Assembly: GCF_008015755.1 (NCBI RefSeq) | Contig: NZ_SSGF01000023.1 | Location: 1 to 64,000, forward strand | Reading direction: 5' to 3' | From: Methylophilus sp. | GTDB lineage: Bacteria; Pseudomonadota; Gammaproteobacteria; Burkholderiales; Methylophilaceae | Length of the DNA stretch: 64,000 bases | Shown: positions 8,483 through 61,530 of the stretch, one piece after another | Layout of the letters: every line of letters begins with the position of its first letter | Position numbering within the stretch: the stretch's first letter is position 1 | Notes under the pieces: model-generated | What the model was told of the DNA's origin: nothing | Database searches by the model: none | Seen by the model: only the letters and a program-made list of their open reading frames with translations | Made by a program: the position numbers and the translations under genes

Positions 8483-10775
8483 AGATTATCTTTTCCATCC
8501 AGCCTGGATTAGAGTTTTGCTTTGCATAATCAAGATATAGCTTCAAGTCTGGTCTTTGCGTGATTAAAGTTTCGATATGATTAATTAGGTAATAAGCTAT
8601 TTCCGACCAATATTTAGCTTTTGCATTGACAGTACTTTTGGCTTGGTCAACTGCTTGCATTAAGCTAAATAACACTGTCAAAATTTCTGAATTGACTCCA
8701 AATACTATTTCTTTAAAGATGCTCTGCTCAGTAAAGTTGTTGCTGTTCTGGATAGCTGGGTTTGTAGGTTGTTTCAAAGCATGTGTTTTCAAGAATTCAT
8801 CGACTTCATCAATTGTTTCGAAACCACTTGCTTCAAGCATAAGGTCACTATCTTTCATTGCATGAATTACTATTGCTGCCTGAAATATACGAATCCATCG
8901 TTCTTGGAAAAAATCTAGAATTGGCCTTGGAAGATACCGGCTGATGAGCCTTATGTCTAACTGGGTGTGTCCCAGAGCTTTAGACATTTCACTGAGACTT
9001 CTAGTCTCAAGATATACCAGAACACCACAACTGGCTCTTAAAGCCGGGAGGCTGAACCTAAGAGCATATTTAAGGCGCTTCTCATAGTCTAGAGAGGATG
9101 TATTTGCTAAAGATTCCGCAAATGATTCAAATCTCAGTGAAGTATCGCTTGCTAACCTTTTAATTCTTGCTGGGTAACTAAAGCCACGTTTACATGTTAA
9201 TAATAGGTATCGCCAATTATCATCATTATTCTTTTTTAGGTGGTTCCGTAAGCTGGTAGTTAAGTCAATCATTTGCTGAACAATAAATGTTGTTTTTAGA
9301 TTTAAATGAATGATTTGTTCAGCAAGTAAAGGCCCTTTGCGACTTTTGTAGCTAATCAAGTTATAGCCGTTATCAGACTTCACAAATCCAACCAATTTTC
9401 CATTTTTGTCAAAGAGTTGCAGCTTCTCTAAGAAGGACGGTGTTATTTGTGGGTGATTAGCAATCAAGATAATGCAAAAAGGTAAAAGTGCCCCTGTGAT
9501 AGGTAAGCCTAATTCGTATGCAGTTTGAGGTAACGGGTTCGGAAGAAAAAGATGCGCGTTATTTTTTTTATCTACAATATGTCCATGATGGAAATATGTA
9601 GATGCTGCATTTTTTAAATGATCAGGATTAAAACGATCAATTAACCATGAGTTTTTATTTGTTTTATCACTCTGACCAATCTTAACTACTTTTCCTAAGG
9701 TGCTATTTTCTAATCTTAATGTGTATCTTACCCATATTTCATTTATAGCCCATTCGGCCCATGTTATGGCAATATCTAAATCAGCTTTTATATTATGAAA
9801 GAGAAGGTGCATAGCTTCTTCATCAGTTGCATGCAAAGGAATGTCAGTTAATAGCTTTTGACTGACAAGATACCCTTCATCAGCAATTTTTATATTTTTG
9901 CTCGATTTTGGACCTTTTTTAAAAGGGATTGAAGGGATCGCTCCATAAGGTTCCGCAAATAAATCTGAGCGCAATAAATATGTATTTAGGAACGGAAGAA
10001 TTGAACCGTTCCAGCGAGTAATCAATGTGTTGACCTTGACTCCGCTTGCATACCCCTCCTCAAAATAAAATGTTAGAAATCTTCTTAGAAAAGGACCCAT
10101 AAAATGGGGGTCTTGGAAGTTCCTCTCATTTAGAGGTTCCTTAGTCTGACGTATAAAATTAACAAAAGACTTGAGGCCATGAATTCTATCGGCTCCACTG
10201 GCGCTGTAATATAGCGTGCAAATGTCGTACAGTTTCTGTGTGAAATCTCGCCCAAATTTTTCGTAAATGCCGTACAAGGGTGCCCAGTACTCTGCACTTT
10301 CTTTATTTGAACATTTCCAAGCATTCCATAGCCAAACTTTTTCTTCATTTAATTCAAGCTTTTCAAATTTTTCAACACAACTGATTGCATCTAAGGAAGG
10401 TTTGGTCAGGTGAAATTTCAAACTAGGAAAGGGGTATGAATCGAATAGTTTTTGGGATTGCTCACAAAGCCTGGATAGAATACATAGATATGTATAAGTT
10501 GTTTGATTAGTTATTTCGAATATTTTTTTCGAGTATAAAGCCCCAGCATATAGGCAGATTATTTCCCCAAAGGCCGGGCTTTGCAGAATCGAATCATTTA
10601 ATTTTCGATTAGTTATTTGCAAAAAGCATTCAAGCGTACGTAAAACTGGCTTAGCTTTTGCCTTGTAAGCAACGCCCAATTCCACATTGTGGTGGGCCTC
10701 CTCTAATTTATGCAGGACATGTAGATTGATTGCCAAAAAGGGAAAATCTATGTTTGCTCTTGCGATATTGATCAT
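8472..10775 (-). CDS. Large recombinase-like protein (767 aa), first gene of the operon, degenerate active site
   Basis: This is a very long protein whose C-terminal part keeps the late recombinase motifs: 'SKALGHTQLDIRLISRYLP' has the Gly-His and a Tyr in the nucleophile position. The usual His-x-x-Arg box is replaced by 'LPALRASCGVLVYLETRS', keeping the Arg but not the His. The N-terminal 500 residues are helical, with no family I can name. The ATG at 10775 is preferred; an in-frame TTG six bases upstream is the other option. It is the first gene after the comM junction and overlaps the next recombinase gene. It may be a structural or DNA-binding partner rather than the cutting enzyme. Codon and base composition are AT-rich, like the rest of the operon. 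Confidence 0.75.
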   Translation of the reverse strand: MINIARANIDFPFLAINLHVLHKLEEAHHNVELGVAYKAKAKPVLRTLECFLQITNRKLNDSILQSPAFGEIICLYAGALYSKKIFEITNQTTYTYLCILSRLCEQSQKLFDSYPFPSLKFHLTKPSLDAISCVEKFEKLELNEEKVWLWNAWKCSNKESAEYWAPLYGIYEKFGRDFTQKLYDICTLYYSASGADRIHGLKSFVNFIRQTKEPLNERNFQDPHFMGPFLRRFLTFYFEEGYASGVKVNTLITRWNGSILPFLNTYLLRSDLFAEPYGAIPSIPFKKGPKSSKNIKIADEGYLVSQKLLTDIPLHATDEEAMHLLFHNIKADLDIAITWAEWAINEIWVRYTLRLENSTLGKVVKIGQSDKTNKNSWLIDRFNPDHLKNAASTYFHHGHIVDKKNNAHLFLPNPLPQTAYELGLPITGALLPFCIILIANHPQITPSFLEKLQLFDKNGKLVGFVKSDNGYNLISYKSRKGPLLAEQIIHLNLKTTFIVQQMIDLTTSLRNHLKKNNDDNWRYLLLTCKRGFSYPARIKRLASDTSLRFESFAESLANTSSLDYEKRLKYALRFSLPALRASCGVLVYLETRSLSEMSKALGHTQLDIRLISRYLPRPILDFFQERWIRIFQAAIVIHAMKDSDLMLEASGFETIDEVDEFLKTHALKQPTNPAIQNSNNFTEQSIFKEIVFGVNSEILTVLFSLMQAVDQAKSTVNAKAKYWSEIAYYLINHIETLITQRPDLKLYLDYAKQNSNPGWMEKIIYAK

Positions 10776-10846
10776 TGTCAATTACTTTCACGTTGGAGGT
10801 GTCCATATATACTATTGATGTATATAAATAAAAGTCATATTGACAA
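10775..10846. repeat. Imperfect inverted repeats at the island end
   Basis: TTGTCAATTACTTT at 10775-10788 matches, apart from a two-base gap, the reverse complement of AAAGTCATATTGACAA at 10831-10846. The arms lie between the first recombinase gene and the comM break, where recombinase-binding core or arm sites would be expected. This is a pattern seen by eye; binding is inferred. Confidence 0.45.
10819..10846 (-). promoter_or_regulatory. Candidate sigma-70 promoter of the recombinase operon
   Basis: Read on the minus strand, TTGTCA (10846-10841) is followed after 16 bases by TATACA (10824-10819). Transcription would start near 10812 and leave a leader of about 37 bases to the ATG at 10775. 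The -35 overlaps one arm of the inverted repeat, so recombinase binding could repress its own operon. Confidence 0.4.
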
Positions 10847-59331: not shown

Positions 59332-59344
59332 GTAAGGGATGGCC

Positions 59345-60220
59345 ATGCGTTACCAGGTTGAGCACCAAACCGTCTACCACTACGATACGTCTGTGACTCA
59401 ATCGCAGCAACTGCTGCATATGATGCCGCGCCAGACAGACTTTCAGCACTGTGTGTCTTATACCCTTGCCTGCGAGCCGCAGCCCGCCGAGCACTCACAG
59501 CGTTTAGACTTTTTCGGTAATCATAATGATTATTTCACCATGTTGACGCCACACCAGTCATTGGCCGTGCTGTCACGTTTTCAGGTGGATATCCAGCCTC
59601 GCCCCACCATGGTCGCGTTGACGCAAAGCCCGGCCTGGGAAGCAGCGCAAGCAGCGTTACAGCTTCAGGCAACTAAACATCTGACCGCCGCGCCCTTTAT
59701 TTACGCCACTGCCAAAGTCAAGTGTAGTGAGGCATTGGCCAGCTTTGCGCGGCATTGTTTTACGCCGCAACGACCCTTGCTTGAGGCTGCCATGGCGCTC
59801 ACTCAGCATATCTATGCCGAATTTGAGTTTGACCCGCAAGCGACTGATATTTCCACCCCGTTGGATGAAGTGTTGAAGGGTCGCCGCGGCGTTTGCCAGG
59901 ATTTCGCGCACTTGATGATAGGCGCGTTGCGTTCGCTTGGCCTGGCGTGTCGCTATGTCAGTGGCTATATTCTCACGCATCCGCCAGCTGGCCAGCCACG
60001 TCTGGTTGGCGCCGATGCTTCGCACGCTTGGGTCTCTGTCTATTGTCCAGTGTATGGCTGGGTAGACTTTGATCCTACGAATAACTGTCTGGTGCAGCAG
60101 GACCATATTACCGTGGCCTGGGGCCGTGATTTCAGCGATGTCTCGCCCATGCGCGGCGTGGTGCTGGGGGGCGGCCAGCAGCAGCTCGCCGTCAATGTCA
60201 CAGTGACGCCACTGGAGTAG
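59345..60220 (+). CDS. Transglutaminase-like protease/amidase
   Basis: This is a 291-residue protein with an N-terminal beta domain ('YQVEHQTVYHYDTSVTQSQQ') and a transglutaminase core. The catalytic Cys is in 'GRRGVCQDFAHLMIGALR', His in 'DASHAWVSVYCPVYGW' and Asp in 'VDFDPTNN'. The ATG at 59345 is chosen because AAGGG then lies six bases upstream. It is the third gene of the cluster; family members likely cleave or transfer peptide/isopeptide bonds in concert with the ATP-grasp ligase. Confidence 0.9.
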   Translation: MRYQVEHQTVYHYDTSVTQSQQLLHMMPRQTDFQHCVSYTLACEPQPAEHSQRLDFFGNHNDYFTMLTPHQSLAVLSRFQVDIQPRPTMVALTQSPAWEAAQAALQLQATKHLTAAPFIYATAKVKCSEALASFARHCFTPQRPLLEAAMALTQHIYAEFEFDPQATDISTPLDEVLKGRRGVCQDFAHLMIGALRSLGLACRYVSGYILTHPPAGQPRLVGADASHAWVSVYCPVYGWVDFDPTNNCLVQQDHITVAWGRDFSDVSPMRGVVLGGGQQQLAVNVTVTPLE

Positions 60221-60273
60221 CCACACTTTTCGCAGCATTTTCAGCCTGGTTTGTGCCGCTTTGCCCGGTTGAC

Positions 60274-60287
60274 TTGATATTAATCAA
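60274..60287 (+). promoter_or_regulatory. Perfect FNR/ANR box with class II promoter
   Basis: TTGAT-ATTA-ATCAA matches the FNR/ANR consensus exactly and is extended to GACTTGAT/ATCAAGTC. Its centre (60280.5) is 41.5 bases before a start at 60322 set by TAATCT at 60310-60315, the standard class II activation distance. No coding gene lies downstream on this strand. Confidence 0.75.
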
Positions 60288-60321
60288 GTCTAGGCGTCTG
60301 CATCGCGCGTAATCTTTGGCC

Positions 60322-60382
60322 TGTGAGAGATAGCTGAGACGTAAAGTCCATATTTGCCCCGGCGTGACCGGGGCATTTTTTT
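60322..60382 (+). ncRNA. Candidate FNR/ANR-controlled small RNA
   Basis: This is a predicted transcript of about 60 bases that starts at the class II promoter and ends at the terminator T-run. It has a 5' single-stranded part of about 30 bases (UGUGAGAGAUAGCUGAGACG) that could serve as a seed, and a 3' GC-rich stem with a U-tail suited to Hfq. No start codon with a usable frame is present. The genes on either side converge on this region, so the promoter has no other target. Known counterparts in layout are FnrS, PhrS and AniS; no sequence relation is claimed. Confidence 0.6.
60355..60382 (+). terminator. Strong intrinsic terminator
   Basis: TGCCCCGG and CCGGGGCA form a perfect 8-bp stem with a five-base loop, followed by seven T. 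It ends the candidate small RNA and may also stop read-through from the transglutaminase cluster. Confidence 0.92.
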
Positions 60383-60393
60383 GTCTACGCGGC

Positions 60394-61287
60394 TTAGCCG
60401 TAACGTTTTTTGTATTCGTCTTTCAGCAATTGCCTGAATGCCGTCATTGTCATCGACAAGGCGCCGCCAGGATCATTTTTGCGCCAGCGACCGATACCTT
60501 TAGGGCCAGCCGCTTCATCGTGCCCCAGGACATAGTCAAAGTCAAACACGCTTGGGTTGTTGGCCTTGGCCCACAGCAAAAACTCAATCAGGGTGGCTTC
60601 TTGCTCTTTACTGTAAGGCAGGTAAGCTCCGGCCAGGATATTGTCGGTGTTTTGCTCGATCACGCGCACCTTTTTGGCATCGATGGGTTGCTTGTGATTG
60701 GTATCCCAATAGGTGTAATACTTGCCGTTATGCACCTCTAACCGCCCAGGGTTAGTGATTTCGATACCGACTAAAAAGTTGGAGACTCCATTGCGTTTTT
60801 CACCGGCAATGGTCCAGGCGCTTTCGCCCGCATGGTAGCCCCATTGGTTGAGCGGATTAGCCTGTACAAACTTGCCATCGGTGCTGATGCAGCAAAAGAA
60901 ATAAGGGCTGCTGGCAATCGCGCTCACCGCGTTTTCAATGCCTTTGCTATATTGCCCGGCGGTGAAGTGCACGATGGCACCATAAGGATAGGCTTTCGGG
61001 TACTCACCCTGAGCGGCGCGTTTAATGTCAGTGCGGATGACGGCTTCTGGATACCACAGTTTTTTTTCGCCGACCGGGTAGCGCTTTTTTTCACTCACCA
61101 CCATCTCCGGGTGCAGGCTGGGGCGGGGTGGTTCGGGTGGCCTGAACTCTTCCGGCACCGGTTCTTCGAGCAGTTGCGACAAGATGTCAATCTGGCTCAG
61201 TGCCAGCGCATCTACCTTGGGGTCGGCAGAGAGGCGGGCGATTTGCATGGCTGACCAGCGCAAGGTATACAGTTTTGCTTTATCCAT
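60394..61287 (-). CDS. N-acetylmuramoyl-L-alanine amidase (Amidase_2/PGRP fold)
   Basis: This is a 297-residue zinc amidase homologue. The core runs from about residue 100: 'YGAIVHFTAGQ' (first zinc His), 'NQWGYHAGESAW', 'SNFLVGIEITNPG', and 'YVLGHDEAAGPKGIGRWRKN' with the second His and the Lys/Arg region. No signal peptide is visible; the N-terminus is a helical segment starting 'MDKAKLYTLRWSAMQIARLS'. The ATG at 61287 follows AAGGAG. Without an export signal it may act on recycled muropeptides in the cytoplasm or be a peptidoglycan-sensing or prophage-derived enzyme. Confidence 0.82.
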   Translation of the reverse strand: MDKAKLYTLRWSAMQIARLSADPKVDALALSQIDILSQLLEEPVPEEFRPPEPPRPSLHPEMVVSEKKRYPVGEKKLWYPEAVIRTDIKRAAQGEYPKAYPYGAIVHFTAGQYSKGIENAVSAIASSPYFFCCISTDGKFVQANPLNQWGYHAGESAWTIAGEKRNGVSNFLVGIEITNPGRLEVHNGKYYTYWDTNHKQPIDAKKVRVIEQNTDNILAGAYLPYSKEQEATLIEFLLWAKANNPSVFDFDYVLGHDEAAGPKGIGRWRKNDPGGALSMTMTAFRQLLKDEYKKRYG

Positions 61288-61530
61288 GGAAGAGGCTCCT
61301 TGATTGTTTAAGTGCCGCCACCTGTTCATCCACGCTGCTGTGGCGATCTCTGTATGGCATGAACGGCCTTTGCGGCTGTCATGTGGATTTATATTAGCCA
61401 CCCTTTGTTAAGTTGTGTTGTTTTGATTGCGTGTGAGCGCTAAATAAAACCACTTGCGCAAAAAAGTGTGTGTTTGACCGCAACTCAGGCGCGGTAAAAT
61501 AGCGATTTATTTAAGCAGTGAGTGTTGGCC

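Follow-up and report, generated by a model that had tools for sequence, protein, structure and literature searches.

In this study we ask what is encoded at positions 60274 to 60382 of a stretch of Methylophilus DNA of 64,000 nucleotides (the window), where a transglutaminase-like gene on the + strand (59339-60220; Pfam Bact_transglu_N and Transglut_core) and an Amidase_2 gene on the − strand (60394-61287; Pfam PF01510, 28.4 bits at a cut-off of 26) face each other. This convergent arrangement was already recognized in an earlier note on the window, which proposed an oxygen-regulated small RNA in the gap. Our preferred reading, to which we assign a probability of about 0.82, is that the segment would be the gene for a base-pairing sRNA of about 61 nt, activated by FNR and probably assisted by Hfq.

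Predicted promoter, transcript and terminator

The candidate control site is a perfect TTGAT-N4-ATCAA box, TTGATATTAATCAA, at 60274-60287 on the + strand; it is the only perfect copy in the window, and the whole genome has 9 in 2,747,675 bases. When one mismatch is allowed, the window contains 7 FNR-like boxes (1 perfect and 6 with one mismatch) against 3.04 expected, a number reached in 5 of 100 shuffles. Two boxes with one mismatch, at 10768-10781 and 10815-10828 of the window, lie 47 bases apart, and the former overlaps the 5' end of a 769-residue frame on the − strand.

A −10 element, TAATCT, at 60310-60315 (+ strand) predicts a transcription start at 60322, relative to which the centre of the perfect box (60280.5) falls at −41.5, the class II position. 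These coordinates agree exactly with the earlier claim of a box centred 41.5 bases before the start predicted from TAATCT. The hexamer matches TATAAT at 3 of 6 bases, with the T, the A and the final T kept, and is absent from the list of a sigma-70 promoter scan that requires a −35 element; a class II FNR site needs no −35. The joint chance expectation for a perfect box, a TANNNT hexamer and a strong terminator is 6e-5 to 9e-5 per window, a rough estimate in which TANNNT was allowed at 3 offsets and the terminator within 120 bases, with thresholds set post hoc. With the expectation below 1e-4, a chance origin of the combination is unlikely, and the estimate says no more than this.

The predicted RNA, whose start is set by the promoter geometry, extends for 61 nt from 60322 to 60382 on the + strand. 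It opens with a conserved 5' block, UGUGAGAGAUAG (60322-60333), and continues after a linker with a conserved core, GUAAAGUCCAUAUU (60341-60354; 78-79% mean identity), which is the likely pairing region and which takes the variant form AGUCCACAAUU in genomes G004, G005, G007 and G009. An intrinsic terminator at 60355-60382, recognized from the sequence, from a terminator scan and from the alignment of the members, closes the RNA: it reads TGCCCCGG-CGTGA-CCGGGGCA followed by T7, that is, a GCCCCG..CGGGGC stem (60355-60375) with a U7 tail. The number of terminator-like sites between 59500 and 61500 is unremarkable (3 versus 2.8 expected), but with 8 pairs this one has more than either of the other two. 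Across members, the RNA is about 52-63 nt long; the folding energy of its 5' part is −0.7 to −3.2 kcal/mol in six of them and −6.5 and −7.3 in G009 and G014, so that in most members this part is predicted to be weakly structured.

Protein coding was considered and rejected. The longest frame that both starts and ends inside the predicted RNA has 4 codons, which bears out the earlier statement that there is no small frame; frames of 5-9 codons start with TTG or GTG and overrun the RNA end, and indels of 1, 2 and 8-10 bases separate the members, with no reading frame kept. At 60323-60337 it can be seen that 7 of 8 members have GTG or TTG at RNA base 1 or 2, followed by 2-3 codons and a stop; this leaderless frame of 3-4 codons at the 5' end is odd, but probably due to chance. 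A tRNA search of the element found none, and Rfam at gathering thresholds returned no family match (12 sub-threshold matches, E 0.37 to 4).

Distribution, conservation and history in Methylophilus

The element lies between the same two flanking genes in 8 of the 22 Methylophilus genomes searched. The amidase-side intergenic region was read in the 10 genomes of this genus in which the amidase gene had been located (8 among 120 genomes of the family, and 2 more): the element is present in 8 of them and absent in G008 and G003, where both flanking genes are present and the whole unit is missing, including the T-tailed terminator. In M. methylotrophus the copy lies at L032:3904-4003 on the − strand. 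A DNA search of 61 genomes gave some match at E ≤ 1 in 53; the clear ones beyond the window were in G010, G007 and G002 (5e-13 or better) and in G014 (2e-4), all Methylophilus. The matches in G031 (0.003) and G038 (0.009) cover the terminator stretch alone; that in G005 is weak (0.01), but the element is real on reading its locus.

A covariance model, for which the eight members themselves served as the training set, recovered the same 8 of 22 genus genomes with E from 1e-17 to 3e-12, and no further good copy in the genus among up to 150 first-look candidates scored per genome; 14 of the 22 genomes had no match below E 0.3 (4 of these 14 are less than 90% complete). In a family sample of 100 the model found 5 genus members and one doubtful match, in G099 (E 0.009), which was rejected as a terminator stem that, by eye, follows coding-like sequence. 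In an order-wide sample of 300 genomes, under stricter filters and with 12 candidates scored for each genome listed, the window's own genome was the single match. Two weak matches, at a second place in G009 (E 0.31) and in G013 (E 0.50), consist of a short AAAGTCTC motif and a terminator and were set aside; the G013 match and the end of a hydrophobic frame of 27 residues overlap, and the second match in G009 is alike by eye. At both sites (L044:1453-1610 in G013; L045 near 1470-1600 in G009) this frame precedes the motif and terminator, which resemble the RNA core and may represent a distant analogue or chance.

The earlier note had made conservation of box and terminator in close relatives a test of its proposal. 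In this respect the proposal stands for the eight genomes of the genus in which both are kept; it does not stand for the near relative G008, in which they are absent. Because 14 of 22 genus genomes, this close relative included, are without a match, the unit is dispensable.

As for conservation within the element, we have calculated mean pairwise identities for the 5 non-redundant members and, for some parts, also for all 8. The half-sites of the box are conserved (100% and 92% in the 5 members; 95% and 95% in all 8), with 65% identity in the N4 between them in the non-redundant set. The 22-base spacer at 60288-60309 (+ strand) has diverged in sequence (45% identity; 46% over 8), and the alignment shows its length fixed at 22 bases in 7 of 8 members; the exception is G009, with 21 bases and a box centre at −40.5. 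The −10 element is identical in 7 of 8 members, with TATTCT in G009, which gives 100% identity in the non-redundant members and 75% over all 8, G009 being also shifted by one base. The six bases that follow it drop to 62% (non-redundant set). Within the RNA, again in the non-redundant members, identity is 70% in the 5' block, 18% in the linker, 78% in the core and 73% in the terminator: the linker is variable in length, and the blocks and terminator are conserved around it. Besides its distance and hexamer, G009 deviates in having an imperfect half-site and a different 5' half with a small hairpin of its own; it retains the AGUCCACAAUU core and a similar terminator. There is little covariation: the palindrome of the DNA box accounts for 5 of the 12 predicted pairs, and among the 7 terminator pairs 1 has changed on both sides. 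On the alignment, this is how a promoter and an RNA are conserved; a protein, or a stretch that is uniformly slow, would look different.

The same pattern bears on whether the segment is merely a terminator and 3' untranslated region belonging to the transglutaminase operon, with box and −10 incidental. The terminator does lie on the operon strand and could end the operon transcript, but what is conserved is the box, the −10 element and the distance between them, not the intervening bases; moreover, conserved RNA blocks lie upstream of the stem, and G008 and G003 have the operon without the unit. We consider this explanation highly improbable.

The history of the presumed sRNA gene was studied with a tree of the transglutaminase in 18 genomes, 4 of the 22 having been left out for lack of a transglutaminase match. 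The 8 element-bearing genomes and G003, G008, G015 and G021 form a group of 12 (support 94/93), in which G003, without the element, branches first. The sister of the window's genome is G008 (93/90), which also lacks the element and whose transglutaminase is the closest to that of the window (93%). G015 and G021 are the sisters of G004 and G005 (100/99), and have neither amidase nor element beside the transglutaminase gene. Counting label changes on the tree gives 2 when the 8 ungrouped rows are not considered, and just one change is required by the branches with good support. As drawn, the tree fits one gain of the element with later losses.

Flanking genes and regulators

The earlier note had concluded from the convergent flanks that no protein gene can be the target. 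This was too strong, as the RNA would be antisense to any amidase transcript that, lacking its own terminator, continued past the stop codon. One could therefore propose that the element acts mainly in cis: the FNR-induced RNA, or its transcription, would pair or collide with the amidase transcript and so tie amidase output to oxygen. The amidase stop codon is only 11 bases past the T tract, there is no − strand terminator-like site in 59500-61500, the − strand past the stop has a stem with no T tract after it, and the amidase adjoins the element in 8 of 8 element-bearing genomes. On the other hand, cis-antisense pairing is perfect for any sequence, which leaves the conservation of the RNA blocks across species unexplained; 2 genomes have the amidase without the element, and the RNA and the amidase coding region do not overlap. 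A mainly cis-acting element thus seems unlikely to us; since no terminator was recognized on the − strand at this place, the proposed base-pairing sRNA may in addition act in cis against the amidase transcript.

The amidase may have a history of its own. A scan of named bacterial genomes found 7 amidase loci, six of them in Methylophilus records (sp. 14, QUAN, 42, Leaf416, M. methylotrophus and one uncultured; 84-94% identity) and one in Undibacterium flavidum (L033:3001-3891; 77% identity). The Undibacterium locus has no RNA element and no transglutaminase gene, and an amidase this similar without either neighbour suggests lateral transfer of the amidase. It is conceivable, if quite doubtful, that a lineage-specific FNR-controlled sRNA arose together with a laterally acquired cell-wall amidase and has a dual role, as a trans repressor through its conserved blocks and as an antisense RNA to the amidase transcript. 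If this were true, low oxygen would alter both metabolism and wall turnover in a methylotroph.

The regulator itself is encoded in the window's genome. Its FNR has 273 residues, scores 243 bits with NCBIfam NF008365 (cut-off 228) and aligns with a solved FNR at E 3e-57; it carries CxxCx5C at 45-54 and ETxSR at 234, and its Cys147, which we take to be the fourth cluster ligand, is aligned to a cysteine of the solved protein. An FNR with the cysteines for a [4Fe-4S] cluster is thus present, and together with the comparison across 8 of 22 genus genomes this supports the proposed sRNA gene and its class II FNR promoter. Another perfect box, TTGATATGCATCAA, lies between fnr and a divergent gene, presumably hemN-like (L059:1960-1973, on contig C1 of the window's genome), and its position suggests autoregulation and an FNR regulon in this methylotroph. 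Hfq was matched in 21 of the 22 genus genomes, in one of them in part, and the genome without a match is 80% complete; two features expected of an Hfq-dependent trans-acting sRNA are thus seen in the sequence, an encoded Hfq and a U tail after the terminator stem.

The box might instead be read mainly by another Crp/Fnr protein (for example an NO-responsive one), in which case the signal would be nitric oxide or nitrate rather than oxygen. DNR-type proteins share the FNR half-site, and in the window's genome the HTH_Crp_2 domain is matched strongly at a second place (C26:114492) and weakly at C27:9418 (it is matched in 22 of 22 genus genomes). That the genome's own FNR carries the cysteines of the cluster, and that a perfect box precedes its gene, argues for FNR, and we regard a different reader as improbable.

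Boxes were also seen at other loci, whose genes are named here by eye. Two near-duplicate blocks of one genome share the box TTGATTAAAATCAA (L060:1224-1237 and L065:2045-2058), each with a transaldolase-like gene on the − strand, the box and then a Rieske-type oxygenase-like gene. At L061:1999-2012 the perfect box TTGATATTTATCAA precedes a Rieske iron-sulfur protein frame by 19 bases, and a cytochrome b-like frame comes next; this box may tune the respiratory chain.

Relation to known FNR-controlled sRNAs and possible function

FNR-controlled sRNAs are known from several bacteria. The gonococcus is also a betaproteobacterium, and AniS of the meningococcus is presumably the equivalent of gonococcal FnrS; Pseudomonas aeruginosa, the host of PhrS, belongs to a different class of bacteria. 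In E. coli, FNR is described as activating more commonly from class II sites near −41.5 than from any other single position (excerpts of PMC7349173). The site of E. coli fnrS is placed at −41.5 in excerpts of PMC3032703, and in the K-12 record it lies at −42.5 relative to the start annotated there. According to the excerpts of PMC3032703, the gonococcal FNR-regulated sRNA has a predicted class II box together with a −10 element and a Rho-independent terminator. The layout as such is therefore already known, because E. coli fnrS and the gonococcal sRNA share this kind of promoter (PMC3032703, in part), and the novelty that the earlier note saw in it was overstated.

The likeness to FnrS of E. 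coli and other enterobacteria is that of an FNR-dependent sRNA with a class II site. In contrast, E. coli FnrS has 122 nt and the Methylophilus RNA 61, and the two have in common only an 8-base word, TCCATATT, and the terminator end (E 0.10 for one pair), features mostly not kept in the other members. The Rfam model RF01796 (FnrS), which finds E. coli fnrS at 134.8 bits as a positive control, does not match the Methylophilus element even at E up to 5. By sequence comparison the Methylophilus RNA is not of the FnrS family. The Neisseria sRNA, similar in its predicted box, −10 and terminator, is set apart by description, gonococcal FnrS being longer (fusion to +111) and having a predicted 5' stem loop (excerpts of PMC3032703). 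PhrS is likened by description too, through the dependence of its expression on the FNR-type regulator ANR (excerpts of PMC5703892). Overall, the Methylophilus element is a credible candidate for a lineage-restricted FNR-dependent sRNA, confined to part of one genus.

These results can be combined in the following scheme. As oxygen falls, [4Fe-4S] FNR would bind the box at −41.5 and recruit RNA polymerase to TAATCT; transcription would start near 60322 and stop at the U7 tract, yielding an RNA with a weakly structured 5' part that carries two conserved blocks, followed by the terminator stem. The RNA would probably work with Hfq, its conserved blocks pairing with distant mRNAs. Transcription, oxygen response, Hfq binding and trans pairing are all inferred from sequence.

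Targets were sought by taking three stretches of 10 bases from the RNA and matching their reverse complements to 3, 4 and 3 genomes, a weak test confined to exact matches. The three patterns gave 26, 12 and 12 matches versus 22, 12 and 27 for reversed-pattern controls, with no overall excess of exact 10-mers; in the window's genome alone the first pattern gave 14 versus 7. Leaving out the element, six sites are shared by two or three genomes, and five of them fall deep within long frames. The sixth (L128, L132) sits 3 bases downstream of where a long frame has its first GTG; it was rejected because the opposite strand, by eye, encodes a P-loop motif, and the frame was therefore taken to be a shadow. 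Several sites found in single genomes lie between 130 bases upstream of a possible start and 70 bases into the frame. With exact 10-mers in 3-4 genomes per pattern, no credible conserved target site at a translation start was recognized.

Among the open-access papers listed for Methylophilus and Methylophilaceae, judged by title, we found none on an sRNA of these bacteria. If expressed, the RNA described here would thus be an oxygen-responsive sRNA in a methylotroph for which we found no precedent in print. The element also suggests how fast FNR-controlled sRNAs may come and go: its promoter geometry is exact to the base where it is present, and it is absent in near relatives.
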